In this document: positions 5,223 through 42,600 of the stretch, piece after piece | Numbering within the stretch: the stretch's first letter is position 1 | How the letters are laid out: every line of letters begins with the position of its first letter | From: Gammaproteobacteria bacterium | Lineage (GTDB): Bacteria; Pseudomonadota; Gammaproteobacteria; Eutrophobiales; Eutrophobiaceae | DNA: 64,000 bases | NCBI GenBank assembly: GCA_004297165.1 | Contig: SCUJ01000010.1 | Coordinates: 5,001 to 69,000 of the forward strand | Direction of reading: 5' to 3' | Made by a program: the position numbers and the translations under genes | The notes under the pieces: generated by a model | What the model saw: the letters and a program-made list of their open reading frames with translations, nothing else | Databases searched by the model: none | What the model was told of the DNA's origin: nothing

Positions 5223-5234
5223 CTTGACACCATA

Positions 5235-6950: not shown

Positions 6951-7016
6951 ATACAAGATGAAAAAATTTATAATAATAATTATGTTTGATCCATATATAG
7001 TATTTACATATGCATC
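6924..7016 (-). ncRNA. Candidate small RNA, about 93 nt
   Basis: In the 301-base gap between two divergent genes, the minus strand carries a good sigma-70 promoter (7051-7023) followed about 75 bases later by a strong intrinsic terminator (6950-6929). No plausible protein lies between: the ATGs are followed quickly by stops. The transcript would be AT-rich with a UUCG-capped terminator. It would stop before reaching the next minus-strand gene, so the terminator is not explained by a neighbouring mRNA. Target and expression are unknown. Confidence 0.4.
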
Positions 7017-7022
7017 ATAGCC

Positions 7023-7051
7023 AGAATAATTTAAGGGGATTAGTCAGTCAA
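7023..7051 (-). promoter_or_regulatory. Sigma-70-type promoter for candidate small RNA
   Basis: Read on the minus strand: -35 TTGACT (7051-7046), 17-base spacer, -10 TATTCT (7028-7023). Predicted start near 7016. Confidence 0.45.
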
Positions 7052-7116
7052 GTTTCTGACATTACAATTTTTTAGACCTGATGAAAGAAAGTTACTCACT
7101 CATATAATAATTTCCA

Positions 7117-8403: not shown

Positions 8404-8517
8404 AGTGAAGTTGTAGTCCAAAAGGCTTTATTGCTGAAACCTGAATTAGGTACGGAAAATATCTACTGAAGAACTTTAAGTTTATTTCCTAATTTTCCAA
8501 CCGGAAAAAGAAAATAC

Positions 8518-8546
8518 TTGTTATAGATAGTACCCTTACATAAAAT
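8518..8546 (+). promoter_or_regulatory. Candidate promoter upstream of the hopanoid cyclase gene
   Basis: TTGTTA (8518-8523), 17-base spacer, TAAAAT (8541-8546). It lies in the 287-base gap 8404-8690 and would give a leader of about 140 bases. Nothing else was recognised in that gap. Confidence 0.35.
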
Positions 8547-8690
8547 TAGTCGGCTATTTAGGGGGAAACTGCAGTGCTCGAACAGCAACTTATTGATCTA
8601 GCGGTAGATTTATAAGATTGCAGGGGTGTTTTTTACTGTTATTTTTTCATCTTTGTACCGCGACAGTTCGATTAAGTAGGTTAAAGACTC

Positions 8691-10760: not shown

Positions 10761-10823
10761 GCCTGTACGGCGGAGTCCGGCCGACCGGCGCCCTGACCCG
10801 GATATAATTCATCCCAGTCGAAC

Positions 10824-11846
10824 ATGCACGACACAGCAACGACAGCCACGATCCTGACGCCTGCAGATCTGACTACACCATCAATACAGCCAGACTCGCT
10901 GCGGCATGGCGAAACCGCACGTAATGGAACCAGAAGATTAATCGATGGTAAGGAACGGGTCTTCTATGATGGCTACTGGATGAAAACGTATGATGTCCCC
11001 CACACCATCGCCTACAAGAAATGGCTCATCGATCAGTTGACCCGCCGGGTCTTCCGCAACACCGAACCAGGCATCAATGCCCCTGGGAAACGCTTGGAGG
11101 AGGTAAAAGCCGCCTATAACAGCACGTCGGAACCCTCCCGGAAGCGCGTGCTTGCGGCAATGCTCGCAGGCGCTTACCTCAATCGTGGCTCCGACATACT
11201 CACCAAGGTCGTCGAACTGGAGGAAATTGGCATCACCGTGGAATCGAGCAATGAACTGCTGAGGGAATGCGGACGGTGCTTTATGAACGCCCTTGAGTTT
11301 GGCAAGAATATCCATCCGTTGCATGGTACCGAGGAACTCGATGAACTCTGGGGAGAACCCTTTAAGGCCTTCACGATGCCGATACCGCAATTTCTGGAAA
11401 CGCGATATATCAAACTCGCCAAGGCCCTCAGTGATATCGACCTGATCGCCAACACCATGATCGATCTGGTGCAACGAATCGAATACTTTCCAGGCGTGGC
11501 GGAACAACTTAAGGAACTCCGGGAAAGCGCGAAGGAGGCCGCACAAACCCAGAGAAGCGATATCGAAATCATCGAGATCTGGCCCAGGTTCGTCGGCGTC
11601 GCTGACCGCCTGCACGATTACCGCCCGGTCGTCCCGCCACGCACCTCCCGACGCGTGCAGAGCATGGCGTGGCGGGGCAAACAGATCATCAAGATCGGCG
11701 CCGATTTGATCGGCGATATCTCCAGCCTGAGAATCTCCAAACCCAAGACCACACAAAGCTTTCTTCAACGTTGTGAGCATTACCGGCAACGCTATCTGAC
11801 CAACCCGCAATCCCGAACGATCAGCGCGGACGACCTGCGCGCCTGA
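10824..11846 (+). CDS. Protein of unknown function downstream of shc
   Basis: 340 aa, not recognised. No signal peptide or membrane helix is visible. It is largely alpha-helical and charged, with a central helical stretch (KRVLAAMLAGAYLNRGSDIL, then LLRECGRCFMNALEFG) and an Arg-rich tail. It starts at ATG 10824, 63 bases after shc and on the same strand, so it may be co-transcribed with the cyclase gene. A large minus-strand frame (11810-10938) overlaps it, but the plus-strand frame has the more natural composition and spacing. Confidence 0.6.
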   Translation: MHDTATTATILTPADLTTPSIQPDSLRHGETARNGTRRLIDGKERVFYDGYWMKTYDVPHTIAYKKWLIDQLTRRVFRNTEPGINAPGKRLEEVKAAYNSTSEPSRKRVLAAMLAGAYLNRGSDILTKVVELEEIGITVESSNELLRECGRCFMNALEFGKNIHPLHGTEELDELWGEPFKAFTMPIPQFLETRYIKLAKALSDIDLIANTMIDLVQRIEYFPGVAEQLKELRESAKEAAQTQRSDIEIIEIWPRFVGVADRLHDYRPVVPPRTSRRVQSMAWRGKQIIKIGADLIGDISSLRISKPKTTQSFLQRCEHYRQRYLTNPQSRTISADDLRA

Positions 11847-11878
11847 CCTTCGCCAGTATCGGCCGCCATCAGTAAGTC

Positions 11879-13372
11879 ATGTCTGCCATCCGTACCGCGG
11901 CATCCGTCCTCCTGATTCGTGGCGCGGACAATAACCCCGAGATCTACCTGGTAAAACGTTCTCCCAATCTTGTCTTCATGGCGGGCTTATGGGCCTTCCC
12001 CGGGGGTGTTGTGCATGCATCGGCGGACGCCGTAGGGTGGGACGTTCCGCATTCTGCCCTAACCGCCTGTGCCAGGAGAGAGTTGTTCGAAGAGACAGGG
12101 GTTTTACTGGCCGACCCGGTGTGCCTGCCGGCACCCGACCGGCTGCAAACAATCCGCCTCGCCATGTTATCCGGTTCAGAGGATGGCATGTGGTCTGGCT
12201 TACAAGCCGCTCTTGACGATCCCGCCGGATATTTCACCCCCGTCTGCGAACTGCTCACGCCTGCCGGATCGCCGGTACGCTACCAGACTACTTTCCTGCT
12301 TGCCCGTCTGCCTGACGATTGTCTCCCGACAATCATAAACGGCGAGCTGACCGAGGGGGCTTTTTTCCAACCTGAGGAGGTTGTCGGATTGTGGCACGCG
12401 GGACAGCTCCCGATCGCCCCACCCAATCTTATGTTACTGAAGATCATGGCGGAGCGCGGGTTGAGCGGTTTCCCCGGCGCGGCCCGGGCCGCCGCCGGGA
12501 ATATTGCCGCTGGCGCCCTGCATCCCATCTATTTTTCTCCCGGCATTTTTCTCGCGGCGCAGCCGACTCCGACCTTGCCCCCCGCAACCACGACCAACAC
12601 CTTCATCGTTGGCGTACGGGATCTGTATCTCATCGATCCTGCAACGCCGGATTCCGCTGAACAGGAACGCCTGTTTGAAACGATGGATAATCTGATTCTC
12701 AAGGGAGGGACGTTCAGAGGGATCCTGCTCACTCATTATCATGGCGATCATACCGGGGCAGTCACTGTCGCCAGCCAACGATATCGGTTACCGGTGCGGG
12801 CCCATCCCCGGTGCTATGCCCATTTACCGCCCGGATATCTGGCCGGAACACCTCTGATGGATGGCGATATCATCGATCTCGGATTGGCCCCGGACGGATC
12901 AGATACCTGGGGGCTTACGGTTGTACATACACCGGGCCATTCCCCCGATCATCTCTGTTTTCTGGATAACAGATACCACGCAGCGATCGTCGGCGACATG
13001 GTGTCTACCGTATCCACCATCGTCATCGATCCGCCCGAAGGTCACATGGCGACCTATCTCAGCAGCCTGGAAAAATTATGCGCCCTGCCCTTGCGAATGC
13101 TTTACCCTGCCCATGGCGCGCCGCATCCCGACGGCAGGCGATTGCTCCGACAATACCTTGCGCATCGCCGGCAGCGCGAGAACCTCATCATCACAGCCCT
13201 GAAAAAAAGAATCACGACGACAACGCCGGAGTCGCTCCTGCCTGAAGTCTATGCCGACGTGGATCCGGCCATGTATCCAATCGCCGCGCGGTCCCTGCTT
13301 GCCGGGCTTATCAAGCTCGAAGAAGAAGGACTTTGTTCCCGCGATGCCACAGGTGACTGGCGAATGGCTTGA
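11879..13372 (+). CDS. Fused Nudix hydrolase - metallo-beta-lactamase-fold hydrolase
   Basis: 497 aa, two enzymes in one chain. Residues 1 to about 215 form a Nudix domain: GLWAFPGGVVH followed by ARRELFEETGVL, the Nudix box with an insertion between its first Gly and the REx2EE part. Residues about 225-410 form a metallo-beta-lactamase fold with the zinc motif THYHGDHTG, a downstream HTPGHSPDHLCF, the Asp in VGDMVS and the last His in PAHGAPHPDG. The C-terminal ~80 residues look like the winged helix found in LACTB2-type proteins. Separate and fused forms are known in proteobacteria; the substrate is not established (nucleotide-linked or acyl-CoA thioester substrates are possible). It abuts the convergent decarboxylase gene without a gap. 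Confidence 0.85.
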   Translation: MSAIRTAASVLLIRGADNNPEIYLVKRSPNLVFMAGLWAFPGGVVHASADAVGWDVPHSALTACARRELFEETGVLLADPVCLPAPDRLQTIRLAMLSGSEDGMWSGLQAALDDPAGYFTPVCELLTPAGSPVRYQTTFLLARLPDDCLPTIINGELTEGAFFQPEEVVGLWHAGQLPIAPPNLMLLKIMAERGLSGFPGAARAAAGNIAAGALHPIYFSPGIFLAAQPTPTLPPATTTNTFIVGVRDLYLIDPATPDSAEQERLFETMDNLILKGGTFRGILLTHYHGDHTGAVTVASQRYRLPVRAHPRCYAHLPPGYLAGTPLMDGDIIDLGLAPDGSDTWGLTVVHTPGHSPDHLCFLDNRYHAAIVGDMVSTVSTIVIDPPEGHMATYLSSLEKLCALPLRMLYPAHGAPHPDGRRLLRQYLAHRRQRENLIITALKKRITTTTPESLLPEVYADVDPAMYPIAARSLLAGLIKLEEEGLCSRDATGDWRMA

Positions 13373-28438: not shown

Positions 28439-29481
28439 AACCTTCAGCCAATTTCGTAGTATCGGTACTCATCGCGGGCGCTGTCGCCCTGCTCTCCGCC
28501 TGCAATACCCAATCCTCGATGCGGCCTTCGGGGATGCCTTCCCCTACCAGCTCTACCGGCTCCTCAGGCAGTGCGGGGATCCCTGGACCCACGCCCATGC
28601 CGGGAAGCACGAGCAGCAGTGGGTCGGGACGCCAGTCTTCCACGGGGCAAACCCCTCGTTCCAGTTCCGGCACGGCCTCCCGTTCCGGCGCCGCCTCCAG
28701 TCCCGGTGAGCAAGGTTCCGGCGCCAATTCCGGCAGAAAGTCAGGGACAACCTCCGAATCGGGGACCGCAAACAAGAGCGGGACAGCGGACCGCGAAGGC
28801 GCCGCCGGGTCGGAAGCGCGCGGCGAGGGCGAGTCGGATACCGCCGGCAAATCGGATGACGAGATCCTGGCCGAGGCACTTGCGGCCCTCTCCGCCGGTA
28901 AGGCGAAGGGTCAGGGTACCGAATCCGAAGGCGAAAAAGACGGCGAGAAGACCGGGGCAGGGACCGATGGAAAGGGCGACGGTCAGCAAGATGGGGATCA
29001 AGGTACAGCGAACGCATCCCGCGCGGGCGATCGTAGCGGCAATGGAACCGATTCCAACTCCGGCAATCAGAATGCGGCGGATGGCCGGCTCACAGCGGGC
29101 CTGGCCGAATTCGATGATATGATACGGGACAAACGCGAGGAGGCGACGGCGCAGGCGAATACCGAAGGCGCCGGGCCACGCCGCATTTCCGGAGGCGCTG
29201 AAGATGAAGACGGCCTGCAAACCGCCATGCTGGACCGGGACCCACCGCCCGCGCCAGACGGCAGCGAACAGGGGGCTGGCGGTACCGATATGGCCAAGGC
29301 GGGCCCTGCGGCAGTAACGCCCGAATTCGAGGTCCCGGCTGACGTGGGCAACGGTCAGGACGACGACATCATCGCCAAACAACTGCGGGAGGCCGCGATG
29401 AAGGAGAAAGACCCGGAGTTGCAGGCGAAACTCTGGGAGGAGTACCGTAAATACAAGAATGACATGCAGGCGAGGACATGA
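28435..29481 (+). CDS. Low-complexity Ser/Gly/acidic lipoprotein
   Basis: 348 aa. A lipoprotein signal with lipobox LLSAC (Cys at about residue 23) is followed by some 70 residues rich in Ser, Gly, Thr and Pro, then a Gly/Asp/Glu/Lys-rich disordered stretch. The charged helical C-terminus (DDDIIAKQLREAAMKEKDPE) is the only region likely to fold. It overlaps both neighbours by 4 bases, so translation is coupled. It probably acts as a long flexible tether from the outer membrane; no family was recognised. Confidence 0.75.
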   Translation: MKPSANFVVSVLIAGAVALLSACNTQSSMRPSGMPSPTSSTGSSGSAGIPGPTPMPGSTSSSGSGRQSSTGQTPRSSSGTASRSGAASSPGEQGSGANSGRKSGTTSESGTANKSGTADREGAAGSEARGEGESDTAGKSDDEILAEALAALSAGKAKGQGTESEGEKDGEKTGAGTDGKGDGQQDGDQGTANASRAGDRSGNGTDSNSGNQNAADGRLTAGLAEFDDMIRDKREEATAQANTEGAGPRRISGGAEDEDGLQTAMLDRDPPPAPDGSEQGAGGTDMAKAGPAAVTPEFEVPADVGNGQDDDIIAKQLREAAMKEKDPELQAKLWEEYRKYKNDMQART

Positions 29482-30665
29482 TGCGATCCAACCATTTCCA
29501 ATTTCTGCTGACGGCCTGCCTGGGACTCCTGCTGGCAGGCTGCAATACCACGCAGGTGCGCACCACCGAGCATACCGGGATAATCCAGGAGTCGACGCCC
29601 ATTGCGGAACACCTGCTGCTCGATGTCGGCATCGGGATCTTCAATCCCGGCGTCGACCCGGACGCCGACCCCGAAAAGACCGGTATCTTTCCCAAGATCC
29701 GCGCGGCCGAGGCGCGTTTCATGCCCTATATCCTGATGGAGACCCTGCAACAAAGCGGCAACTGGGGCATGGTGCGGGTCATTCCGGACCGGCAGAGCGA
29801 GATGGATGTCTGGGTGGACGCCGAGATCCTGGTCTCGGACGGCGCGACCCTGGAGCTCGGGGTAACCGTGCAGGACAGTTCCGGGCGCACCTGGTTCACG
29901 AAAAAATACCAGGAAGAGGCCAGCAAATACGCCTTTGATCCAAGCATCCCCAACCACGGCGAACCCTTTCAGGGGCTCTATAACCGGATCGCCAACGACC
30001 TGCTGGCTTATCACCGGTCCCTGCCCGAGGCGGAGATCGTGGCCATCCGCACCATCACCGGCCTGCAATTCGCGCGGCGTTTCGCCCCCGAGGTCTTCAC
30101 CGGGCATCTCACCGCCGATGAGCAAGGGCGGTTGTACATCGCGCGGACGCCGGCGCCGAACGACCCGGTCTTGCAGCGGGTCGAGCAGATCCGGGAACGC
30201 GATTACATGTTCGTGGACACCCTGCAGGAATATTACGAATCCTTCGTGCGCCAGATGGATGTGCCTTACCTGGAATGGCGCAAGGCCTTTTACGAGGAGA
30301 GCGAGGCCCTGCGTGAGGCGCGGGCCCAGCGCAATGCCCGCCTCATCGGCGGGGCGGTCGCAATCCTCGGCGGGATCCTGGCCCAGGGCAGCAACAGCCC
30401 GGTGGTCAACACCGCAGGACAGGTCGGCATCTTTGGCGGGGCCGCCGCCATCTACAGCGGTCTGCACAAGCGGGAGGAGGTCAAGTTCCATGTCGAGTCG
30501 CTGGAACAAATCTCGGACTCGTTGCAGGGGGAGATGGAACCCCACACCATGGCTTTGGAGGACAAGACAGTGACCCTCAGCGGTTCCGTCAACGAGCAGT
30601 ACCGGCAGTGGCGCGAGATCCTGCGGGAGATGTACGAAAGCGAAACAGGATTGACAACAAACTAG
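29478..30665 (+). CDS. Lipoprotein of the envelope operon, family unknown
   Basis: 395 aa with lipobox LLLAGC (about residue 23). The N-terminal ~200 residues look like a mixed alpha/beta periplasmic domain (HLLLDVGIGIFNPGVDPD, EMDVWVDAEILVSDGATLEL). A glycine-rich hydrophobic stretch (about 290-320, GGAVAILGGILAQG) could be a membrane-inserting or packing segment. The C-terminus is charged and helical. The start ATG at 29478 overlaps the preceding stop. Not recognised further. Confidence 0.75.
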   Translation: MMRSNHFQFLLTACLGLLLAGCNTTQVRTTEHTGIIQESTPIAEHLLLDVGIGIFNPGVDPDADPEKTGIFPKIRAAEARFMPYILMETLQQSGNWGMVRVIPDRQSEMDVWVDAEILVSDGATLELGVTVQDSSGRTWFTKKYQEEASKYAFDPSIPNHGEPFQGLYNRIANDLLAYHRSLPEAEIVAIRTITGLQFARRFAPEVFTGHLTADEQGRLYIARTPAPNDPVLQRVEQIRERDYMFVDTLQEYYESFVRQMDVPYLEWRKAFYEESEALREARAQRNARLIGGAVAILGGILAQGSNSPVVNTAGQVGIFGGAAAIYSGLHKREEVKFHVESLEQISDSLQGEMEPHTMALEDKTVTLSGSVNEQYRQWREILREMYESETGLTTN

Positions 30666-30727
30666 AACAGCAACCAGATCGACGGACCGCCCGCCCGTTC
30701 GCCACCTGCAGGCAGCACTGATACAGC

Positions 30728-32299
30728 ATGATTTCAAATCCGGATCGTGAACCAGACGAATTCGCATCGCCAACCATCCGGCCGGCGCGGATCGACCTGA
30801 GCCGGCGCTCGGTCGACGGCGCTCAAGCGGCTTCCGGCCTCCGTAATCCGCGCTATATCGCCGTGGCGCTCCTGTTCGGTCTGCTCATCGCCGCGGCCGT
30901 GGGCGTGATCGTCGTCCTGCCGGACTGGCGTCCCGCCATCGCCCCTGTTACGTCTCAAGCCAACAACGCAGGCGTCAAGCAGGCAGTCGCCGCCACAACG
31001 CCCCCGCCGCCCGCGGCGACGGCGCCGCCCCCCGGCGATGCCCCCTGGCAGAAGGCGATCCGCTCGGGTCTGCGCAAGGACAGCCAGTTGATCCTGGAGC
31101 AACTCCTGGAGGCGCGCAAATCGCTGGAGGAACACGGGGTCATGCAGTGGGCGTCCGCTGATTTCGAGCAGGCCATGACCACGGCCGAGGCGGGCGACAA
31201 ATTCTACAACGGGCAGGAATTCGAGCAGGCGCGCGACAGTTACCAGAAGTCCCTCGATGCGCTTAACGGTTTATTGGAACGCAAGGAAACCCTGTTCGAG
31301 GAATCCATGCAGAAGGGGTTGCAGGCCCTGAATGACGGCGATTCCGCCAGCGCGAAGGCGGCCCTGCAACTCGCCCTGGCCATCGATCCCCTGGATCGCG
31401 AGGCGGGCCTCGCCATGCAACGGGCCGGGACGCTGGATGAGGTCCTCGCCCTGATCGCCGAAGGCGATGATCTCCTTGCAGCCGACCAGCTCGAGGCGGC
31501 ACAAGGCAGCTATGCCAAGGCCCAGGGTCTGGATCCGGCCTATCCCGTCACCGCGGAAAAACTGCAACTTGTCGAGACCCGTATCCGGGACCTGGTCTTC
31601 GGGCGGCACATGTCCGCGGGTTTTGCGGAGCTCGAGGCGGGACGGCTGGACGAGGCCCGCAAGGCCTTCAACGAGGCGCTCAAAGTCGCAACGAATTCGG
31701 TGGAGGCGCGCAATGCCCTCGAACAGGTCAATCTTAAACTCACCGGCAACCGGATCCAGGCCCTGTTAAAACAGGCCGAGGCCGACGAGGCGGCGGAGGA
31801 GTGGCAGGCCGCGCAGCGGTCCTATGAGGACGCGCTGGCCATCGATGACAAGCTCGCCGCCGCGCAAGCCGGCAGGGAGCGCACCGCCGTGCGCGCGGCC
31901 ATCCACGAGCAGGTGATGTCGATCATCGACCACCCGGACCGGCTCTATGACCCGAAGGTGTATTCAGAAACCCGGACATTTCTCGACCGGATGCATGCGC
32001 TCTCCGACAAGGGCCCCGTGTTATCGAAACAACTCGCCACGCTCGGTGGATTGATGGAGCAGGCCGCCACCCCGGTCCGCGTCCGCCTGCAATCCGATAA
32101 CCAGACAGAGGTGACGATTTATAAAGTGGGCAACCTCGGTTTTTTCACGGACCTGGAACTGGAACTGCGGCCTGGCCGCTATGTCGCGGTGGGCATCCGC
32201 TCCGGATACCAGGACGCGCGGACGGAATTCCAGGTGGCGCCGGATCAGCCGGAACAGATCGTGCAGGTCCGGGCTGACCGCCCCAGCATGCCGCGCTGA
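30728..32299 (+). CDS. Inner-membrane TPR protein
   Basis: 523 aa. A ~40-residue cytoplasmic tail with many Arg precedes one membrane helix (about 41-63, YIAVALLFGLLIAAAVGVIV), a Pro/Ala linker, then tandem TPR-like helices (ADQLEAAQGSYAKAQGLDPA, AGRLDEARKAFNEALKVATN, AEEWQAAQRSYEDALAIDDK). The C-terminal beta domain (VTIYKVGNLGFFTDLELELR) resembles PEGA-type carbohydrate- or protein-contact modules. Most of the protein is therefore periplasmic. It starts 62 bases after the preceding gene and 18 bases before the PEGA/SUMF1 gene, whose domain style it shares. Confidence 0.8.
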   Translation: MISNPDREPDEFASPTIRPARIDLSRRSVDGAQAASGLRNPRYIAVALLFGLLIAAAVGVIVVLPDWRPAIAPVTSQANNAGVKQAVAATTPPPPAATAPPPGDAPWQKAIRSGLRKDSQLILEQLLEARKSLEEHGVMQWASADFEQAMTTAEAGDKFYNGQEFEQARDSYQKSLDALNGLLERKETLFEESMQKGLQALNDGDSASAKAALQLALAIDPLDREAGLAMQRAGTLDEVLALIAEGDDLLAADQLEAAQGSYAKAQGLDPAYPVTAEKLQLVETRIRDLVFGRHMSAGFAELEAGRLDEARKAFNEALKVATNSVEARNALEQVNLKLTGNRIQALLKQAEADEAAEEWQAAQRSYEDALAIDDKLAAAQAGRERTAVRAAIHEQVMSIIDHPDRLYDPKVYSETRTFLDRMHALSDKGPVLSKQLATLGGLMEQAATPVRVRLQSDNQTEVTIYKVGNLGFFTDLELELRPGRYVAVGIRSGYQDARTEFQVAPDQPEQIVQVRADRPSMPR

Positions 32300-32317
32300 A
32301 TCAGGGACACATCCCGC

Positions 32318-34366
32318 ATGCACGACGAAAATATCCGCATCGAGGCCGCCCCCTTCAAGCCGCACACGCCAGGGCAACGCAGTCGCTCCCTCAAGCTGCG
32401 CGCCGGGGTGGTGCTCACCGGTCTGTTCCTGCTGATCAGCCTCGGGGCGGCATGGTTCCTGTTCAGTGCGCGCGCCGTCTATATCAATGTCACGCCCGCG
32501 GAGGCCCGGATCGATGTCGCCGCCATCCTGCAACTGCGACTGGCGGACCGCTTTCTCCTGCTCACTGGCAGTTACCCGACGGAGATCGGCGCGGAAGGCT
32601 ATTACCCGCTGGCGGTGGAACTGCCGATCACGGAGCAACAGAACCAGGAGTTTCACTATCAGTTGCAGCCGCTCCCCGGGAGTTTGCGGATCACGACGCC
32701 GGGGGTCGTGAATGCCGCGATCCTCCTCGACGGCGCTGCCCGCGGCGTTGCACCCACGGTCATTACGGAGATCCCTCAAGGCGGACACAGGTTGACCATC
32801 CAGGCCGAACGTTACTTCCCGGTGGAAACCAATATCGAGATTGAGGGCCTGGGCCGGGAGCAGGAACTCGCGGTGGAACTCAAACCGGCCTGGGCGGATG
32901 TGGAGATCGTCTCGGACCCGCAGGACGCGGAGGTCTTCCTGGGCGAGGAATCCCTGGGGCGCACCCCGCTCGCAATGACAATCCTGGAAGGCCGTCACCG
33001 CCTGATGGTGAAACGCGACGGCTTCAAGCCCTGGATCGATCACATCCAGATCACCGCCGGACAGGCGCAGCGTCTGACCGATATCCGTCTGGCGCCGGCC
33101 GATGCCACGGTCCTGTTGAGCAGCGACCCGCCGCAGGCCAATGCCACGGTGAACGGCGAATACATGGGCATGACGCCGCTGGAACTCGCCCTGACCCCGG
33201 GGCAGGCGGCGACCATCAAACTGCACAAGCCAGGGTTTCTATCCGCAGAACGCTCCCTGAAGCCCGCCTCCGGGGATCAGGTCCGTCTCAATGTCCCGTT
33301 GCAGCCGGAACTCGTCGAGGTCAGTTTCGATATCCGGCCGGCGGATGCCGAGTTGTATGTCGATGGCGCGCTGGCCGGCACGGGGAGTCAGCGCCTGCGC
33401 CTTCCCGTCCGGGGTCACCGGATCGAGGTGAAGAAGGCCGGCTACGCGGATTACAGCGACAGGATCGCGCTGCTCGGCGGGGCGGATCAGCAGGTCGCCA
33501 TCGAACTGAAGACGATCGCCGAGGTGCGCAAGGCGCAGATCAAATCCCGGGTAACGACAACCGCCGGCCAGACCCTGAAGCTGCTGGAGCCCTATACATT
33601 CACCCTGGGGGCCTCGCGCCGGGAGGCGGGCCGCCGGGCCAACGAGCCCCTGCGGACCGTGGAATTGCGCAAACCGTTTTACCTCAGCCTGAACGAGGTC
33701 ACCAATGCCCAGTTCCGGGAGATGAAAGCGGACCATCGCTCGGGCGAGGTCCAGGGCATCAGCCTCGACGACGACCCGCAACCCGTCGTGAACATCACCT
33801 GGGAACAGGCCGCGCAGTACTGCAATTGGCTGAGCCGCAAGGAATCGCTGCCATTGTTTTATCAGGAAACGGACGGGCGGATCACCGGCATCAACCCCGC
33901 AGCGTCCGGCTACCGCCTGCCGAGCGAGGCGGAGTGGGAATGGGCGGCGCGCGCCGTTCCGGGGACGGAGGGGTTGAAGTTTCCCTGGGGCCCGGCATTG
34001 CCGCCGCCGGATAAAAGCGGCAACTATGCCGACGAGACCTCGGCCGCGGTCATCGGCCGCATCCTGGAGAATTACAACGACGACCATCTGGCTGCCGCCC
34101 CGGTCGGCAGCTTTCCCGCCGGCAACAACGGCCTCTTCGACATGGGCGGCAATGTCTCCGAATGGGTCAACGATTATTACGGGATAGGACTGGAAAGCGC
34201 CAATGTGTCGAGCGACCCGCTCGGCCCCGAGTCCGGCGAATTTCACGTCATCAAGGGCTCCAGTTGGGCCCATGGAACGCTGGCGGAACTGCGCCTGTCT
34301 TATCGTGACTATGGGGATCAACCCCGCAACGATGTGGGCTTTCGGATCGCCCGGTATGTAGAATGA
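32318..34366 (+). CDS. Membrane-anchored PEGA-repeat protein with C-terminal SUMF1-like domain
   Basis: 682 aa. One membrane helix (about 28-48, AGVVLTGLFLLISLGAAWFL) is followed by several PEGA-type beta repeats (e.g. DPQDAEVFLGEESLGRTPLA, DPPQANATVNGEYMGMTPLE). Residues from about 429 form a formylglycine-generating-enzyme-like (SUMF1) fold (NEVTNAQFREM, YRLPSEAEWEWAARA, GLFDMGGNVSEWVNDYYG, DVGFRIAR). The cysteine pair needed for sulfatase activation is absent, since the final region reads VIKGSSWAHGTLAEL. It is therefore more likely a binding domain of the C-type-lectin-like fold than an enzyme. It lies in the middle of the envelope operon; cell-wall or glycan contact is inferred. Confidence 0.85.
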   Translation: MHDENIRIEAAPFKPHTPGQRSRSLKLRAGVVLTGLFLLISLGAAWFLFSARAVYINVTPAEARIDVAAILQLRLADRFLLLTGSYPTEIGAEGYYPLAVELPITEQQNQEFHYQLQPLPGSLRITTPGVVNAAILLDGAARGVAPTVITEIPQGGHRLTIQAERYFPVETNIEIEGLGREQELAVELKPAWADVEIVSDPQDAEVFLGEESLGRTPLAMTILEGRHRLMVKRDGFKPWIDHIQITAGQAQRLTDIRLAPADATVLLSSDPPQANATVNGEYMGMTPLELALTPGQAATIKLHKPGFLSAERSLKPASGDQVRLNVPLQPELVEVSFDIRPADAELYVDGALAGTGSQRLRLPVRGHRIEVKKAGYADYSDRIALLGGADQQVAIELKTIAEVRKAQIKSRVTTTAGQTLKLLEPYTFTLGASRREAGRRANEPLRTVELRKPFYLSLNEVTNAQFREMKADHRSGEVQGISLDDDPQPVVNITWEQAAQYCNWLSRKESLPLFYQETDGRITGINPAASGYRLPSEAEWEWAARAVPGTEGLKFPWGPALPPPDKSGNYADETSAAVIGRILENYNDDHLAAAPVGSFPAGNNGLFDMGGNVSEWVNDYYGIGLESANVSSDPLGPESGEFHVIKGSSWAHGTLAELRLSYRDYGDQPRNDVGFRIARYVE

Positions 34367-34370
34367 ATGT

Positions 34371-34607
34371 ATGCGCGCACTACTCTCATGTTTATCGTTA
34401 CTGCTGGCGCTGATGGCGCCGGTCGCGGCGCAGGACGCCCCCGTGCCGGAACCACCGAAGGCGGAGGATAATGACGGAGACAAGGAGGCGGGCAAAAACG
34501 TTCAACAAACCAAAACCAAACCAGAAGAGGCGCAGGCCCCCGATATAATCGAGACCACCGACAAGGCCTCCGAGGATCTACCTCTCATCTTTCCAGCGGA
34601 TATTTGA
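34371..34607 (+). CDS. Small exported acidic protein
   Basis: 78 aa. A signal peptide (LLSCLSLLLALMAPVAAQDA) is followed by a short, disordered, Lys/Glu/Pro-rich tail with no cysteine. It sits 5 bases after the PEGA/SUMF1 gene and 10 bases before the channel gene. It could be an accessory subunit or a translational spacer. No family was recognised. Confidence 0.6.
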   Translation: MRALLSCLSLLLALMAPVAAQDAPVPEPPKAEDNDGDKEAGKNVQQTKTKPEEAQAPDIIETTDKASEDLPLIFPADI

Positions 34608-34616
34608 ATAACGTCC

Positions 34617-35414
34617 ATGAAATACAATCCACTGCATGACTTTCTCTATCAGCTCTTCGCCCTGATCCTGTCCTTCATCCTGGTGCATGCCGTCTACGTC
34701 ACCATCATCCGGCCCAACGCCGATGCCCTGCTTGAGGAACAACAAAGGGAACAGGACGCCGGACAGCTCACGGAGATCAAGCGGTCCGTGCACATCGTGC
34801 TCAAGGATCCCGAGCAGGAATCCTGTTTCGTCCTGGCCTTCTGGGTATTCGCGATCATCGGCCAGAAGGCCAAGATCGCATTGCACGAGCGCAAGCTGCT
34901 GTCGCAGGCGTTGCTCGATGTGACGCCGGGGACCAGCATCCTGCCCGAGGACGCCCGCACCTATTCCCGGACGATTCAGACCCTGCCCGATTCGGAGCGC
35001 GAGTATCTCCTGCCGCGCGCCTTGCTTGCGGCGCTGCAACGCTTCGGCTCCACCCGCAGCATCCAGGATGCCTCCACTGCGATCCGGGAGATCTGCGACA
35101 CGGAATCCGATCGGCTTGATTCGGAACTGTCCATGGTCCGGTACATCATCTGGGCCATTCCCGCCATCGGCTTCATCGGCACGGTCCGGGGCATAGGCGA
35201 GGCCCTGACCCAGGCGCAGAAGGCGGTCCAGGGCGACATCATCGGGGTGACCATCGGCCTCGGCGTGGCCTTCAATTCGACCCTCGTCGCCCTGCTGCTC
35301 AGCATCGTCATCATGTTCATGATGCATCAACTGCAGTTGCTCCAGGAACGCCTGGTGCTCGACGCCCAGAATTACTGCGATGTGAATCTGGTCCGGCACC
35401 TGCAAATCAGGTAA
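34617..35414 (+). CDS. MotA/TolQ/ExbB-family proton channel protein
   Basis: 265 aa. Hydrophobic helices lie near residues 8-30, 62-78, 175-195 and 207-240. The conserved MotA/ExbB core is present: AIPAIGFIGTVRGIGEAL (Pro at 182, the TolQ/ExbB helix) and GVTIGLGVAFNSTLVALLLS. These proteins form pentamers that let protons through and drive a partner anchored by an Asp-bearing helix. No ExbD, TolR or MotB gene is adjacent. The two VWA proteins downstream have the matching helix (see their entries). This is therefore predicted to be the motor stator of the operon. Confidence 0.88.
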   Translation: MKYNPLHDFLYQLFALILSFILVHAVYVTIIRPNADALLEEQQREQDAGQLTEIKRSVHIVLKDPEQESCFVLAFWVFAIIGQKAKIALHERKLLSQALLDVTPGTSILPEDARTYSRTIQTLPDSEREYLLPRALLAALQRFGSTRSIQDASTAIREICDTESDRLDSELSMVRYIIWAIPAIGFIGTVRGIGEALTQAQKAVQGDIIGVTIGLGVAFNSTLVALLLSIVIMFMMHQLQLLQERLVLDAQNYCDVNLVRHLQIR

Positions 35415-35428
35415 AGGCGGAAAACGAC

Positions 35429-36751
35429 ATGCATCCGGTAATCATGGAACTCAACGACCACGAGATTCGGCTTGCCCGCGACGCGGAGATCATCCTGCGC
35501 AGCCCTGGTTACGCCCTCGTCAACGGCGGTCAGGTCGTCCTCGGCGAAGGCGCCGTCAGGCAATCCAGATTGCGCCCGCGTTCGATCCACGATCAATTCT
35601 GGGACCGGCTGAATGAGGATCCGCTGAAAACCCCCGCCGGGAGCCACCGTCACCATGCCGATCTGGCCTACTCGCACCTGCTCGACATGCATGCGCGGAT
35701 CGGCAAGCCGGAACAGATCGTGTTCGTCGTGCCAGGCAAGTTCAGCAATATGCAACTCGCCCTCCTGCTGGGGCTCGCCGAGGCGGCGCCATTCGCGGCG
35801 GCGGGACTCGTCGATCTTGCAACGGCCGCCATCGCCGCGGTTGCCGGGGCGGGAGAATATGTCCATATCGACATCCATCTCCACAACGCGGTGCTGACCC
35901 AGGTGACGGTCGCCGACCGCGTTCGCCGCGGCGGCGTTCAGGTGATCCCCGGGGCGGGCATGGGGGCGATCGTCGACAGTTGCGCCTATGCCATCGCCGA
36001 CCTGTTCATCAAGCAGTCGCGCTTCGACCCGCAACATCTCCCGGAGACCGAGCAGGAACTGTACAACCAGATCCCGGCCTGCCTCGCGGCCTTGTCATCC
36101 GCCGGGGAATACCTCATGCAAATCGCCCACGGGCAGGTGCAGCATCAGGTCCGGATCGATGCCGCCGCCCTCGCCCCGGCGCTCGAAAAACACTATCAGC
36201 GGATCCGCGCCGCGATTCCGCCGGGCCGGGGCTGCCTGCTGTCCGATCGCGCTGCGGGTCTGCCCGGTTTCGCGGCAGGGCTCGATTGCGCCGGGACGCT
36301 CGAGGAAACGGCCACTTTTCTGGGGTGCCTTGCGAATCTTGCCGAGATCTGCCGTCCGGCGGAGGGCAAGTCCATGCCCTACATCACCTCACTGCCGCGC
36401 ACCGAGTCGCCGCGGATTCATCCGAAGGTCAACCTGACGAAAACCCGGCATCCCGCTGCGTCGCCAAACCGGACGGGCATCACTCATGTCCTGTACCGGG
36501 GACAGGCCTGGCCGCTCGCGAACGGACCGCTCCATCTCGGCGCGGCGGGCGGTCCGCCGCTGGCGGCCCCCTCAACGAGCGGCTGCACCGTAAACCCCAC
36601 ACCGGCCGGCGCGGAGGTCCGTTCCCTCGACAGCGACACGCTGGTCATCAACGGGAAACCCGCTCCCACGCCGGCGCAAGTCGCGCCAGGCGATCAACTT
36701 GCCTTCCCCGGAACGGATACGAGTTATACCTTCATCAACGTGACCGGCTGA
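35429..36751 (+). CDS. Actin/Hsp70-like (ASKHA) protein, tentative
   Basis: 440 aa, no signal peptide. The start (MELNDHEIRLARD, then GYALVNGGQVVLGEGA) and the internal EYVHIDIHLHNAVLTQV resemble the two phosphate-binding strands of the actin/Hsp70 fold, and EQIVFVVPGKFSNMQLALLL resembles the connecting region. The glycine-rich nucleotide loops are not all clear, so the fold call is tentative. The C-terminal ~90 residues form a separate small domain rich in Thr, Pro and Gly. Position between the channel and the VWA genes suggests a cytoplasmic ATP-binding regulator or scaffold. Confidence 0.5.
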   Translation: MHPVIMELNDHEIRLARDAEIILRSPGYALVNGGQVVLGEGAVRQSRLRPRSIHDQFWDRLNEDPLKTPAGSHRHHADLAYSHLLDMHARIGKPEQIVFVVPGKFSNMQLALLLGLAEAAPFAAAGLVDLATAAIAAVAGAGEYVHIDIHLHNAVLTQVTVADRVRRGGVQVIPGAGMGAIVDSCAYAIADLFIKQSRFDPQHLPETEQELYNQIPACLAALSSAGEYLMQIAHGQVQHQVRIDAAALAPALEKHYQRIRAAIPPGRGCLLSDRAAGLPGFAAGLDCAGTLEETATFLGCLANLAEICRPAEGKSMPYITSLPRTESPRIHPKVNLTKTRHPAASPNRTGITHVLYRGQAWPLANGPLHLGAAGGPPLAAPSTSGCTVNPTPAGAEVRSLDSDTLVINGKPAPTPAQVAPGDQLAFPGTDTSYTFINVTG

Positions 36752-36752
36752 C

Positions 36753-37838
36753 ATGGCGCGACGGGTCCGGCGGGAAGCATCCTTCTTCAGCCTGTCCTTC
36801 CTGGATGTCATGTCCTGCGGGCTCGGCGCGGTGGTGCTGCTGTTTTTGATCATCAAGCACAACGCCGATGCGAAGGTGACCGAGACCCCGGTCGATGACC
36901 TGCGTTCCGAGGTTGTCCTGCTGGAAGAAGAGATCGACACCGGGCAACAGGACCTCGCAAAGCTGCGCAATACCCTCTCGGACCTTGACGATCAGCTCGC
37001 CACCGCGCAGGGGCTCGCCCGCCGGATCATGGATTCGATCTCAGCGGAGAAGGAGCAGACCGCCGAGGTCAAACCGGCCAGCGAGGCCGAGGAACTCGAC
37101 CGCCTGAAGCGGGAGATCGTCAGGCTGGAGACCGAGCGCCAGAAGTTGCTGACCGAGGAGAACCAGACCGGGGCGAATATCCGCCGCCACGCCGGCGAAG
37201 GCAACCGGGCCTATATCACGGGGCTGCGTCTCGGCGGCCGGCGCATCCTGATCCTCCTGGACGCCTCCGGCAGCATGCTGGATCGGACCATCGTGAACAT
37301 CCTGCGGATCCGCAACATGCGGGACGAGCGCAAACGGCTCGCGTCCAAATGGCAGAGCGCCGTGGCGACCGTGGACTGGCTGACCGCCCGTCTGCCGCTC
37401 GACAGCCAGTACCAGATATACACCTTCAACACCCGCACCGCCGCGGCCTTGCCGGACACCCTAGGCCGCTGGCTCGCGGTGAAGGACAAACCGCAAATCA
37501 CCCGGGCGGTGGAGCAATTGCGAACCCTGGTCCCGGAGGGCGGGACCAATATGGAACAGGTCTTCCGGGCGGCGCGGGAGATGTCGCCGCCGCCGGACAA
37601 CATCATCCTCATCACCGACGGACTGCCCACCCAGGACAACCGCGGCGGCAGCGGAAATGTCACCGGCAAGCAGCGGCTCCAGTTTTTCAGCAATGCCCTG
37701 AAACAGCTCCCGACGGGGGTCCCGGTGAACGTCATCCTCGAACCCCTGGAAGGCGATCCGGACGCCCCGACCGCGTTCTGGCAGCTCGCGCAGGCGACGG
37801 ATGGCTCCTACATGAGCCCCACGGGGGACTGGCCATGA
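36753..37838 (+). CDS. Membrane-anchored VWA protein 1 with ExbD-like Asp helix
   Basis: 361 aa. After a short basic tail the single helix reads FSLSFLDVMSCGLGAVVLLF, with Asp18 where ExbD (FIDVMLVLL), TolR and MotB keep their essential Asp. A coiled coil follows (about 45-145, rich in Glu, Leu and Lys). The VWA domain then has a complete MIDAS: DASGSM at 170, GGTNM in the middle and LITDG later. Topology puts coil and VWA in the periplasm. It starts 2 bases after the ASKHA-like gene and overlaps the next VWA gene by 4 bases. Likely role: the moving, ligand-binding partner of the ExbB-like channel (inferred). Confidence 0.85.
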   Translation: MARRVRREASFFSLSFLDVMSCGLGAVVLLFLIIKHNADAKVTETPVDDLRSEVVLLEEEIDTGQQDLAKLRNTLSDLDDQLATAQGLARRIMDSISAEKEQTAEVKPASEAEELDRLKREIVRLETERQKLLTEENQTGANIRRHAGEGNRAYITGLRLGGRRILILLDASGSMLDRTIVNILRIRNMRDERKRLASKWQSAVATVDWLTARLPLDSQYQIYTFNTRTAAALPDTLGRWLAVKDKPQITRAVEQLRTLVPEGGTNMEQVFRAAREMSPPPDNIILITDGLPTQDNRGGSGNVTGKQRLQFFSNALKQLPTGVPVNVILEPLEGDPDAPTAFWQLAQATDGSYMSPTGDWP

Positions 37839-38830
37839 GCCGCCGAGCGCGGCGGGAGACCGAGGTCTTCAGCCTCTCCCTGCTCGATGTCGTCACGTGC
37901 GGCTTCGGCGCGATCATCCTCCTGTTGATGATCGCCAGGACCGGCGATGCCCCGGTCCTCGAGGTCTCGCCCGAACCGCTGGACGCGGTGGTCCGCGACC
38001 TCCAGACCCAGTTGTTTCAAATCCGGGGCGAGACCACGATCCTCAACCGGGACCTGAACGCGCGGCATGAACAGATCTCCATCTGGGAGGAAAAGATCGC
38101 CATCCTGCAAGGCGAGCTGGAACAGGCCCGGCGTTCCATGGATGAGATCAAGGACCAGAATTCGGTGAATGCGGTCATCAAGGGGGAGCTGGAACTCGCA
38201 CTCCAGGAACTGACCGCCGAGATGAAACTGCTGCTCGCGCGCAAGGAATCCATCGACACCGGCATCATCGGCGGCATCCCGGTGGACAGCGAATATGTCG
38301 TGTTCGTCATCGACACCTCGGGCAGCATGCAGAGCCACCATTGGGACAGGATGATCGCGATGGTGAACGAGACCCTGGATGCCTACCCCACGGTCAAGGG
38401 CATGCAGATCATGAGCGACATGGGCGAATACATGATCACCGGGAAGCGCCGCCAGTGGATCAAGGACACCCCTGCCCTGCGGCGGACCATCCTCAATACC
38501 CTGCGGAACTGGGCGCCCTTCAGCATCAGCAGCCCGGTGGGCGGCATCCTCGAGGCCGTGCGCGCCTTCCGGGAAAACACCCCGGGGAAGGTCAGCATCT
38601 ATGTCTTCGGCGATGAATTCACCGGCGACTCGATCCGGCAGGTGATCAGGACCGTGGATCAATTGAACCCGCGGGACGAGGCGGGCAATACCAAGATCCG
38701 CATCCATGGCGTGGGTTTTCCCGCCGTGGCCAATGCCCATGCCGATTACCAGTTCACCAACCGGCGCTTCGCCACGCTGATGCGCGAGATTGCCTACCGC
38801 AACAATGGTACATTTGTTGGTCTAAACTAA
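37835..38830 (+). CDS. Membrane-anchored VWA protein 2, paralog of VWA protein 1
   Basis: 331 aa from ATG 37835, which overlaps the previous stop (ATGA); the frame runs further left but only as antisense-like shadow. The N-terminus aligns without gaps to VWA protein 1: RRARRETEVFSLSLLDVVTC, again with Asp18 in the helix. A coiled coil (about 45-140) leads to a VWA domain with DTSGSM at 160. The later MIDAS residues are less clear than in the paralog (VFGDEFTGDS). Two different Asp-bearing partners would suit an ExbB5-ExbD2-type motor built as a heterodimer. Confidence 0.85.
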   Translation: MSRRARRETEVFSLSLLDVVTCGFGAIILLLMIARTGDAPVLEVSPEPLDAVVRDLQTQLFQIRGETTILNRDLNARHEQISIWEEKIAILQGELEQARRSMDEIKDQNSVNAVIKGELELALQELTAEMKLLLARKESIDTGIIGGIPVDSEYVVFVIDTSGSMQSHHWDRMIAMVNETLDAYPTVKGMQIMSDMGEYMITGKRRQWIKDTPALRRTILNTLRNWAPFSISSPVGGILEAVRAFRENTPGKVSIYVFGDEFTGDSIRQVIRTVDQLNPRDEAGNTKIRIHGVGFPAVANAHADYQFTNRRFATLMREIAYRNNGTFVGLN

Positions 38831-38840
38831 TGTAAACAGG

Positions 38841-39464
38841 ATGCCGCCCATGACCGTTCGCCCGCAACGTATCCTTTCCTGGCTGATCGTCTCAGCATTC
38901 CTTTTGAGCGGGTGCAATAATTCACTCAGCCTCAAAACCGCGATCGAGGTACCCGAACCCCAGGTCGCCAAACTGCCGCTGACCGTGGGGGTTTACTACG
39001 AGGACGAACTGAAAAACCATGTCTACACCGAGGACAGCGAGGACCGTCCCGGCTGGAAGATCGACACCGGCGAGTCCCAGGTCGAGCTTTTCGATCGGAT
39101 CCTGCCGGCGATGTTTCAGACTGTTACGCAGGTCGCGCAACCGACCAGCGGCGGGGGGCTGGATGCCGTGCTCGCCCCGCATGTCGAGGACATGCAGTTC
39201 GCCCTGCCGCGCGAGACCGGGACCGATCTCTACGAGGCCTGGATCAAATACCGGCTCAGCCTCTACGACCAGGCCGGGGTCGCCATCGCGAACTGGACCA
39301 TCTCCGGTTACGGGAAATCCACCCCGGAGTTTCTGGGCCGCCGGGATGAAGGTCTCCAACAGGCGATCAATGCCGCCTTCCGCGACGCGGGGGCGCGCCT
39401 TGCCCTCAGTTTCACCCGCAACGAGGAGGTGAAGAAATGGCTCTCGGAAAAACTTGGCGAGTAA
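38841..39464 (+). CDS. Lipoprotein of the envelope operon
   Basis: 207 aa with lipobox LLSGC (LIVSAFLLSGCNNSLSLKTA). The mature part reads like an uncharacterised lipoprotein domain of the LPS-assembly/transport-accessory style (KLPLTVGVYYEDELKNHVY; YEAWIKYRLSLYDQAGVAIA). It ends in a charged helix. The start is ATG 38841 or ATG 38850; CAGG lies 2 bases from the first and 10 from the second, so the second may be the true one. It overlaps the upstream leader of the next lipoprotein gene. Confidence 0.75.
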   Translation: MPPMTVRPQRILSWLIVSAFLLSGCNNSLSLKTAIEVPEPQVAKLPLTVGVYYEDELKNHVYTEDSEDRPGWKIDTGESQVELFDRILPAMFQTVTQVAQPTSGGGLDAVLAPHVEDMQFALPRETGTDLYEAWIKYRLSLYDQAGVAIANWTISGYGKSTPEFLGRRDEGLQQAINAAFRDAGARLALSFTRNEEVKKWLSEKLGE

Positions 39465-39484
39465 ACCTTGCCGATACTGCTGTC

Positions 39485-40156
39485 ATGAAAACGCCCGCCG
39501 CCAATTCGCCGCTCGTGAAATGCCTGTTGGCGTTGTCGCTTGGCTTGGGCGGTTGCAAGAGCACCACGGTGATCGACGAATACCGCGAAGCGCCCACGGC
39601 CGCGCTCGGCGCCGGGGAATCGGTGGTGGTCCTGGGCCGCCGTCACAATAGCGAGCACGAGACCGAGGAGGACTTCATCTCCTGTGTCGGCAAGAACCTG
39701 ACCAACGGCAAGGCCGCCATGCGGGTCATCCCCGAGCAGGAGTTCGTCGACAGCATGTACCCCTACTTCGAAACCAGCACCGCCCCCATGGACGTGAAGA
39801 ATCTCGACTCTCTGGTGGAGAATCCGGCGATAGCGCGGAAATTCGCGGACCTGGATATCCATTATTTCATCTGGATCGACGGTTTCACCGAACGCACCGG
39901 CAGCGAAGGCTCAATCTCCTGCGCCATCGGCCCCGGCGGCGGCGGTTGCTTCGGCTTCGCCACCTGGGATGACGAGGCCAACTACGAAGCCAGCGTCTGG
40001 GACTTCAAGTCATTGAACTTCTCGGGCAAGATCAACGCCGAAACCAAGGGGACCTCCTACATGCCCGCCGTCATCGTCCCGATCCCGCTGCTCGCGAGGG
40101 TTCAGGCAAACGCCTGCAAGAGCATGGCGGAACAGATCCGGACCTTCATTCAATGA
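39485..40156 (+). CDS. Second small lipoprotein of the envelope operon
   Basis: 223 aa from ATG 39485, chosen because it gives a clean lipoprotein signal (LLALSLGLGGCKSTTV). The mature domain has several Cys (DFISCVGKNLTNG, SISCAIGPGGGGCFGFA) that may form disulfides, and an alpha/beta pattern (FADLDIHYFIWIDGFTERTG). The last 4 bases overlap the M48 protease gene. No family was recognised. Confidence 0.72.
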   Translation: MKTPAANSPLVKCLLALSLGLGGCKSTTVIDEYREAPTAALGAGESVVVLGRRHNSEHETEEDFISCVGKNLTNGKAAMRVIPEQEFVDSMYPYFETSTAPMDVKNLDSLVENPAIARKFADLDIHYFIWIDGFTERTGSEGSISCAIGPGGGGCFGFATWDDEANYEASVWDFKSLNFSGKINAETKGTSYMPAVIVPIPLLARVQANACKSMAEQIRTFIQ

Positions 40157-40833
40157 AATTAATTCATATTTTGCTGCTCGCCTGCGCCCTCGCCGGCATC
40201 TCGCTGCAATCCGCAACCGCCGCCACCGCGCAGGGGCCGACGGTCTGGCTGGTGCGCGAGTTGGCCAAGGCCCCGACCGATACCCTGCCGCTGCGCGACG
40301 CCCGCGACCGGGTGGTGAAGACCATCCCGTCGAGCCAGGCGGTTTATCTTTATGCCCTTTTCACAGGACTCCTGGAAGCGGCCGAACTTGAGGCGGAGCT
40401 TTATCTCATCGAGGGCAAGGATCCGAACGCCATGGCGACGCTGGGCGAGAAAGGCGAGAACATCATCGCCATCAACTTCGCCATGCTCGACCTGCTGGGG
40501 GATGATCTGCACGCCCTGGCCGGCGTCATCGGTCATGAGCTGGCGCACCTCAAGCTGAACCACTATCAGGATAAGATCGATGCGTTGCAACGCAATCAGA
40601 ATTCCATGATCACCGCAGAGAACACCAAATACAGCCGGGACAACGAGCGCGAGGCGGATTATCTCGGCATGATCTGGTCGATCGAGGCGGGCTACGATCC
40701 GGAGGGGGCGGTACGCGCCCAGGAGGCACTGTACAAACTGGCGCGACACGGCGGCATGTTCGTCGGCTCGCATCCTTCCAGCATCGAACGGATCACGGTC
40801 CTGAAATCGCTGGCCCGGCGTCTGAAAAAATAA
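40153..40833 (+). CDS. Periplasmic M48-family zinc metalloprotease
   Basis: 226 aa. A signal peptide (LIHILLLACALAGISLQSAT) precedes a compact M48 domain with the zinc motif GHELAHLKLNH (H128-E-x2-H) and the third-ligand region DNEREADYLGMIWS. The C-terminal text GSHPSSIERITVLKSLARRL is typical of the HtpX/BepA/Oma1-like group. Its ATG overlaps the preceding stop, making it the last of the thirteen operon genes. It probably does quality control on, or processes, the outer-membrane or periplasmic parts of this machine (inferred). Confidence 0.88.
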   Translation: MKLIHILLLACALAGISLQSATAATAQGPTVWLVRELAKAPTDTLPLRDARDRVVKTIPSSQAVYLYALFTGLLEAAELEAELYLIEGKDPNAMATLGEKGENIIAINFAMLDLLGDDLHALAGVIGHELAHLKLNHYQDKIDALQRNQNSMITAENTKYSRDNEREADYLGMIWSIEAGYDPEGAVRAQEALYKLARHGGMFVGSHPSSIERITVLKSLARRLKK

Positions 40834-41269: not shown

Positions 41270-41539
41270 TTACGCCGTGCCAAGTATTTTTTTTGCCTCA
41301 GCCAGCGTAACGGTATTGCCTTCCCGGATGTCAGCCAGTCCTTGGGCCACAGCCTTTATGAATCGTAGTTCTTCAGTACTTTTCTCGTAATCGTCCAGAC
41401 CTTGCACGACAGCAACCCCTCTGCCTCTGCTAGTCAATAGGACGGGCCTGTGTGTTTCGTTCACCCGTCTTAAGACTTTGCCAGGGTTAACCTTGAGATC
41501 GGATAGAGGAATGACATCCTCTGAATATATTATTTGCAT
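41270..41539 (-). CDS. Phd/YefM-family antitoxin
   Basis: 89 aa. The start IPLSDLKVNPGKVLRRVNET and RPVLLTSRGRGVAVVQGLDDYE are the DNA-binding half of the Phd/YefM fold. The C-terminal helix would wrap the toxin. It ends exactly where the frameshifted ParE-type gene begins, as in parDE/stb operons, and would autorepress the pair. Confidence 0.88.
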   Translation of the reverse strand: MQIIYSEDVIPLSDLKVNPGKVLRRVNETHRPVLLTSRGRGVAVVQGLDDYEKSTEELRFIKAVAQGLADIREGNTVTLAEAKKILGTA

Positions 41540-42297: not shown

Positions 42298-42600
42298 TTA
42301 GGCGCCAAGCCGCTCAATGATATAGGCAGGGTCCTGAGAGCCATGAATGACCGCGAGTATTTGTACGGTCTGCTCGTCGAAAGTATAGAAGACAAGGTAC
42401 GGAAACGTGTGCGTTACCGCCCTTCGGATGTCTGTCTCCACTTCCTGATACAAAAATGGATTGGGTAGAATTCGATCGCAGGCCAATTCAATTTCGTCCA
42501 TGAACCGCCAACCAAGGCCCTCCTGCTTTTCTTCGTAGGAGAGGTAGCCGTCGAGAATGTCCGCCTCAGCCTCTTTTGTAACAATGAGCTTGCGGCTCAT
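42298..42600 (-). CDS. ParE/RelE-superfamily toxin
   Basis: 100 aa, full length. Family features are KEAEADILDGYLSYEEKQEG, the long helical hairpin, and the C-terminal FPYLVFYTFDEQTVQILAVIHGSQDP. It inhibits gyrase (ParE) or translation (RelE); which cannot be told from sequence. It overlaps its antitoxin gene by 4 bases. Its stop TAA falls within GCCTAAT (42303-42297), as in cassette genes. Confidence 0.88.
   Translation of the reverse strand: MSRKLIVTKEAEADILDGYLSYEEKQEGLGWRFMDEIELACDRILPNPFLYQEVETDIRRAVTHTFPYLVFYTFDEQTVQILAVIHGSQDPAYIIERLGA

Follow-up and report, generated by a model that had tools for sequence, protein, structure and literature searches.

Can two different proteins, each held in the membrane by one helix that carries an aspartate, serve together as the axle of an ion-driven motor? 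The question is raised by two adjacent genes, VWA1 and VWA2, in a stretch of 64,000 nucleotides from a gammaproteobacterial genome (contig SCUJ01000010.1, positions 5,001 to 69,000; hereafter the window). In this work, we followed their homologues, their neighbouring genes and the affinities of their membrane helix. Based on our data, we think it rather likely that the two proteins act as unlike axle subunits in a motor driven by the proton-motive force, of the MotA-MotB, ExbB-ExbD and TolQ-TolR kind.

Two paralogous proteins with a membrane helix, a stalk and a VWA domain

VWA1 (36753..37838, + strand, 361 aa) and VWA2 (37835..38830, + strand, 331 aa) together fill the span that a preliminary description had assigned to them, 36753-38830, and their reading frames overlap at ATGA. 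The gap-free alignment of the N-termini noted there was confirmed by inspection, 20 of the first 34 residues being identical. The membrane helix comprises residues 12-34 in both proteins: FSLSFLDVMSCGLGAVVLLFLII in VWA1 (36786..36854, with the Asp18 codon at 36804-36806) and FSLSLLDVVTCGFGAIILLLMIA in VWA2 (37868..37936, Asp18 codon at 37886-37888). The motif shared by the helices is FSLS[FL]LDVxxCGxGAxxLL, with a basic stretch including Arg7 ahead of it. In a search of the genome with VWA2, the sole match was VWA1 (39% over residues 1-129, E 2e-11), and the profiles of the two N-termini matched each other with an HH probability of 99.5% (E about 1e-21). Judged by these sequence comparisons, the likeness of the N-terminal parts is far above chance and the two proteins are ancient paralogues.

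Behind the helix, each protein has the coiled coil and the VWA domain with a MIDAS that had been described. The MIDAS motif DxSxS lies at Asp170 of VWA1 and Asp160 of VWA2, and its residues are invariant among the homologues. With Pfam, VWA1 scored above the VWA cut-off (VWA_2, 1.9e-8) and VWA2 below it (23.1 vs 27). The AlphaFold2 model of VWA2 (mean pLDDT 76) shows a helix at residues 16-34, a long helix at 49-124 corresponding to the coiled coil, and an alpha/beta domain from residue 154 that Foldseek matched to VWA folds; in a PDB profile search with VWA2, coiled coils were the sole matches. Both proteins of the locus thus present a VWA domain on one N-terminal membrane helix.

An invariant aspartate in a helix that appears to resemble that of MotB

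Among 84,980 species genomes scanned, 52 loci proved to be related, almost all of them with the gene set seen in the window. Asp18 is kept in all 53 VWA1 and all 51 VWA2 homologues, and in 121/121 sequences once more distant ones are added. Loss of the aspartate among homologues had been named beforehand as an outcome that would speak against the idea, and the residue turned out to be invariant, even in the most distant members, in which Cys22 and Gly23 have changed.

The preliminary description placed this aspartate where ExbD and TolR have theirs. The sequence basis for that comparison proved weak, as it consists of three letters, LDV or IDV. The ExbD/TolR profile (PF02472) did not match VWA1 or VWA2 at E<=10, and ExbD/TolR reached an HH probability of 0.3-3% against their helix. 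Gapless profile scores against ExbD/TolR did not exceed those of column-permuted controls (p 0.86 and 0.60), and a position matrix built from 31-34 ExbD/TolR proteins left the VWA helices within the bulk of 1487 random ORFs, taken from a 400 kb sample. A version of the matrix with a membrane-biased background was set aside because it favoured polar windows. With no profile match and with permutation and matrix scores at chance, sequence homology of the helix to ExbD was rejected; by its sequence the helix is not ExbD-like.

The same kind of comparison with MotB gave a different picture as regards the register of the aspartate. Asp-on-Asp was the best of 17 gapless registers, at 10.5 and 12.7 bits for the two proteins, the benchmark of ExbD against MotB being 12.8 bits, and shuffling of the other columns gave p values of 0.0095 and 0.0015. 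The Asp column of a MotB matrix landed on Asp18 in 104/104 sequences. When ranked among the 1487 ORFs with this matrix, the proteins of the window came about 14th and the median of the VWA2 family third, so that 13-14 unrelated ORFs equal or beat the window proteins. The HMM-HMM probability for the VWA helix and MotB was 4-6.5%, vs 72% for ExbD and MotB, and the Pfam MotB profile (PF13677) had no match at the locus in its own genome at E<=1. The profile comparison proposed for these N-termini therefore turned out negative for ExbD/TolR and positive for MotB in the Asp register alone, in which the helix appears, with moderate confidence, to resemble that of MotB.

A dedicated channel protein accompanies the pair

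Upstream of the pair, at 34617..35414 (+ strand), lies a gene for an ion-channel subunit of the MotA/TolQ/ExbB family, a candidate pentamer former (PF01618, 7.9e-15; 55.2 bits vs a curated cut-off of 22.9), whose best solved relative is TolQ (E 0.0085). A gene of this family is found inside nearly all of the 53 clusters, in an altered gene order in L045, L046 and L048-L050. Three clusters are without it (L044, L051 and L053). In the genome of L044, it lies on another contig alongside the TPR and PEGA-SUMF1 genes described below, and the genomes of L051 and L053 have an unlinked, dedicated homologue (E about 1e-106 and 1e-108) much closer to the channel protein of the window than ordinary ExbB/TolQ. 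A dedicated channel gene was present in every genome checked. Thr189 (in GTVRG), Thr212 and Thr222 are invariant in all 50 channel sequences compared. In alignments with ExbB/TolQ, Thr189 falls on their channel Thr; for the second channel Thr, the equivalent of ExbB T181, Thr212 and Thr222 are both candidates, the alignment being ambiguous. No ExbD or MotB genes were found in the clusters at E<=0.01. Co-inheritance with the channel even when unlinked, together with the lack of exbD and motB in the clusters and the invariance of Asp18, makes VWA1 and VWA2 most likely the ion-coupling partners of this protein, in line with the rotor of the preliminary description.

A purely structural or assembly role of the aspartate must be weighed against this. 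The VWA pair would then be a membrane-anchored adhesion device or scaffold, with which the MotA-like protein conducts no ions. The failure of the ExbD/TolR and Pfam MotB profiles to recognise the helices would fit such a role, as would the strong conservation of CxGxGA, which could be a packing motif. Yet distant members vary at the C and G of this motif while the Asp stays, and the channel protein that is inherited with the pair keeps its pore Thr residues, so that we regard a scaffold as very improbable.

It could also be that the VWA proteins sit beside the motor and transmit its force, as TolA and TonB do, and that the axle is an ExbD or TolR encoded elsewhere in the genome. The genome of the window does have four ExbD/TolR genes, and a first vWA family described in a recent study (PMC12204202) is of exactly such a type. 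These four genes, however, adjoin other ExbB genes, the channel gene of the cluster has no ExbD neighbour, and the VWA helices lack the SHLS-type pattern with its His within the membrane, having an invariant buried Asp instead; we consider the transducer improbable. The reading of the pair as ion-coupling partners is the one that we retain: a helix with Asp, a stalk and a VWA domain, in two versions always inherited with the channel protein, suggest that VWA1 and VWA2 are probably the unequal halves of an envelope motor.

Elsewhere in the window's own genome (G000:C13:1231475-1233212; L006, L008, L064 and L065), two different exbD genes lie in tandem adjoining MotA/ExbB-family genes, a possible case of another two-partner motor.

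One axle of two chains or two axles

Further profile searches covered 370 gammaproteobacterial genomes and 397 genomes from the phylum. Of the 28 clear gammaproteobacterial genomes, 25 had precisely two copies, as had 11/11 clear genomes of the phylum search, six of them from another class; in both searches the copies were separated by some 1.0-1.2 kb. A single clear copy was seen in three genomes (G114, G202 and G123); that of G114 lies <1 kb from a contig end and that of G202 sits in a short open frame. In the tree, all VWA1 (61) are separated from all VWA2 (58), with local supports of 0.93 and 0.997 on the flanking branches, and two single-copy relatives fall between the two clades. The split implies a single old duplication, retained in both halves. 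Species differ in the spacing between Asp18 and the MIDAS Asp, and the spacings in VWA1 and VWA2 rise and fall together (rho 0.72, n=47, uncorrected for species kinship), as expected if the two proteins form one coiled coil together.

A single-copy relative of the helix-VWA type (EINIFNVSALDLFASALGAFILI...) is encoded in a cluster of L183 (G070:C218:48000-62000; cluster at 2048-11949). The other genes of that cluster encode an FHA protein, a MotA/ExbB-family protein (6.5e-31 with the profile of the window channel), a PP2C phosphatase and a PEGA-containing Ser/Thr kinase. This system may be a homodimeric cousin of the motor, wired to phosphorylation. A 231-aa protein of L182 (G068:C2:1000-15000, at 6632-7324) has a similar helix, SALDLFASAMGAFILL, and a coiled coil; it is flanked by a PP2C/trypsin-like pair on one side and Ser/Thr kinases on the other, and no MotA-family gene was found within those 14 kb.

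The distant relative in L183, standing beside a MotA-family gene, indicates that a homodimeric version can exist. It bears on a rival arrangement of two homodimeric motors, in which the axle inside the same MotA-like pentamer consists of two VWA1 chains in one motor and of two VWA2 chains in the other, and the periplasmic grips differ. To our knowledge, solved 5:2 motors all have identical axle chains, every half-step being therefore alike, which also speaks for homodimers. In the gliding machinery of Myxococcus, a 2022 review left open whether AglQ and AglS join AglR as a heterodimer or as homodimers, AglRQ and AglRS being considered possible as two alternative complexes (PMC9389320). Against two separate homodimers stand the obligate 1:1 tandem with overlapping genes, the near absence of clear single-copy members, the ancient duplication retained throughout and the co-variation of stalk lengths; we see this arrangement as unlikely. 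The heterodimeric rotor of the preliminary description remains a proposal, favoured by the constant tandem pairing, the single ancient duplication and the co-varying stalks.

The conserved gene cluster

The cluster that holds both complete genes runs from 29478 to 40833, entirely on the + strand, in the order lipoprotein, TPR, PEGA-SUMF1, MotA/ExbB-family channel, Hsp70-like, VWA1, VWA2, two lipoproteins and M48 peptidase. The first gene, a core member, encodes a predicted lipoprotein, LIP1 (29478..30665, lipobox-like LLAGC), which had no match in a Pfam search; its homologues occupy the equivalent position in 41 loci and are found in distant members as well. The next two core genes encode a TPR protein whose N-terminus carries a membrane helix (30728..32299; TPR_2, 4.9e-8; homologues in 47 loci) and a membrane-anchored protein with four PEGA domains and an FGE/SUMF1-like domain (32318..34366; PEGA 9e-43, FGE-sulfatase 1e-41 with Pfam). 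An accessory gene between the channel and VWA1 (35429..36751) encodes an Hsp70/actin-like domain with a C-terminal FHA-like region. Its AlphaFold2 model (pLDDT 90.8) was matched by Foldseek to Hsp70 ATPase domains (9e-15), the usual phosphate-binding motifs are apparently lost on inspection, and the homologue in L051 has a clear C-terminal FHA domain (2.9e-13). Downstream of VWA2 follow two accessory predicted lipoproteins, LIP2 (38841..39464, lipobox-like LLSGC, 43 loci) and LIP3 (39437..40156, 41 loci), and a peripheral secreted M48 peptidase (40153..40833; PF01435, 1.8e-16), which is well conserved in the nearest relative alone (49% identity in L010 vs 24-31% in the others).

In L185-L187 and L190, which represent members of another class and a single genome from the family to which the window belongs, the cluster as seen with profiles consists of LIP1, TPR, PEGA-SUMF1, MotA, VWA1 and VWA2 only, two of these stretches stopping at contig ends; a profile search of the same four stretches found no gene for the Hsp70-like protein. 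The set of six genes is likely to be the machine itself, to which the Hsp70-like protein and the lipoproteins downstream of VWA2 were likely added.

Two known kinds of system were rejected as descriptions of the cluster. The matches to PADLOC models were confined to coiled coils and a weak ZorA, so that nothing here points to defence of the Zorya type, and the GldK model of the type 9 secretion system scored 107 bits on the PEGA-SUMF1 protein, far below its cut-off of 350. Plasmid-borne copies were looked for and none was found.

Some further observations concern the surroundings of the cluster and its relatives. On its downstream side and on the opposite strand, ORFs at 41270-41539 and 42298-42600 (-) resemble an antitoxin of the Phd/YefM type and a toxin of the ParE/RelE type. 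The PEGA-SUMF1 homologue of L051 (3763-6273) begins with an apparent FHA domain on the cytoplasmic side, suggesting that a cytoplasmic FHA signal may be common to several proteins of the cluster. Contig L046 (CAMCQE010000092.1), from a MAG labelled Klebsiella pneumoniae, has the same cluster gene order as an unclassified gammaproteobacterial MAG (L045) and is close to it; its label is probably wrong.

Relation to known systems

Membrane-tethered 'TPH-vWA' proteins, drawn from an Idiomarina query, have been predicted to act in heterologous pairs beside tolQ homologues and without tolR or exbD (Mol Biol Evol 2025, 42:msaf138; PMC12204202, section 8 and Fig. 4c,d). Their helix has a proton-binding Asp, and AlphaFold3 models of the pairs put both Asp residues in a Thr ring. 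The pair in the window shares the tethered vWA, the heterologous pairing, the co-occurrence with tolQ, the absence of tolR, exbD and motB and the Asp of the helix, and the three invariant Thr of its channel may correspond to the Thr ring. From this match of described features, we infer that it belongs with the TPH-vWA/TolQ-like motors. In view of the 2025 prediction, our finding would amount to the same idea reached independently from a new locus, and the contrast with the usual identical pair, which the preliminary description had stressed, loses its novelty. That section and figure are silent on PEGA-SUMF1, Hsp70-like/FHA and lipoprotein partners and on the likeness of the helix to MotB or ExbD; what our data add to them is the MotB-like helix, the conserved core, the Hsp70-like/FHA partner, the co-variation of the stalks and the single-copy relative.

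Other motors are alike in part. With the MotA-MotB stator the locus has in common the PF01618 channel and a lone N-terminal helix with a cytoplasm-side Asp, in the best helix register, but it differs in its two unlike axle chains, in a VWA domain replacing the peptidoglycan-binding OmpA-like domain and in the lack of flagellar genes. ExbB-ExbD and TolQ-TolR share the channel family and a one-helix partner with Asp, whereas the locus has no ExbD domain and no TonB or TolA. In the AglR-AglQ-AglS system, too, a single MotA-like protein is joined by two distinct partners of the MotB/TolR type, and there are outer-membrane partners, although AglQ and AglS carry TolR-like periplasmic domains and no VWA. 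GldK-GldL-GldM of the type 9 secretion system pairs a SUMF1-fold protein with a 5:2 motor; GldK, however, is a lipoprotein, unlike the SUMF1 protein of the locus with its membrane helix and PEGA domains, and no GldL or GldM models were among the Pfam/NCBIfam matches listed for the cluster. Our literature search found no paper joining PEGA, ExbB, VWA and formylglycine, and no functional report on an envelope system with the six-gene core.

A possible asymmetric motor

The elements described above can be put together as an asymmetric ion motor. Five copies of the MotA/ExbB-family protein would assemble in the inner membrane, the pore of the pentamer holding one VWA1 helix and one VWA2 helix side by side, and the two Asp18 residues, chemically unlike, would alternate in binding protons beside the Thr ring as proton flow drives rotation. 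From there, the two chains would wind around each other in parallel for about 75 residues, a hetero-coiled-coil reaching into the periplasm, where two unlike VWA grips may seize or let go of partners through their metal (MIDAS) sites. The load would most likely be other products of the cluster, namely the TPR and PEGA-SUMF1 proteins anchored in the membrane and the lipoproteins of the outer membrane, with the cytoplasmic Hsp70-like/FHA protein as a regulator or scaffold where present. That such a pentamer around a VWA1-VWA2 heterodimer drives an unnamed trans-envelope machine with the six-gene core is a proposal whose chances we judge to be about even.

If it is true, the unlike axle chains would allow one to ask whether both Asp residues are needed, whether the steps alternate and whether one of the VWA grips is the load-bearing one. 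The conserved core, in turn, delimits the partners to be considered in an envelope system that is widespread.
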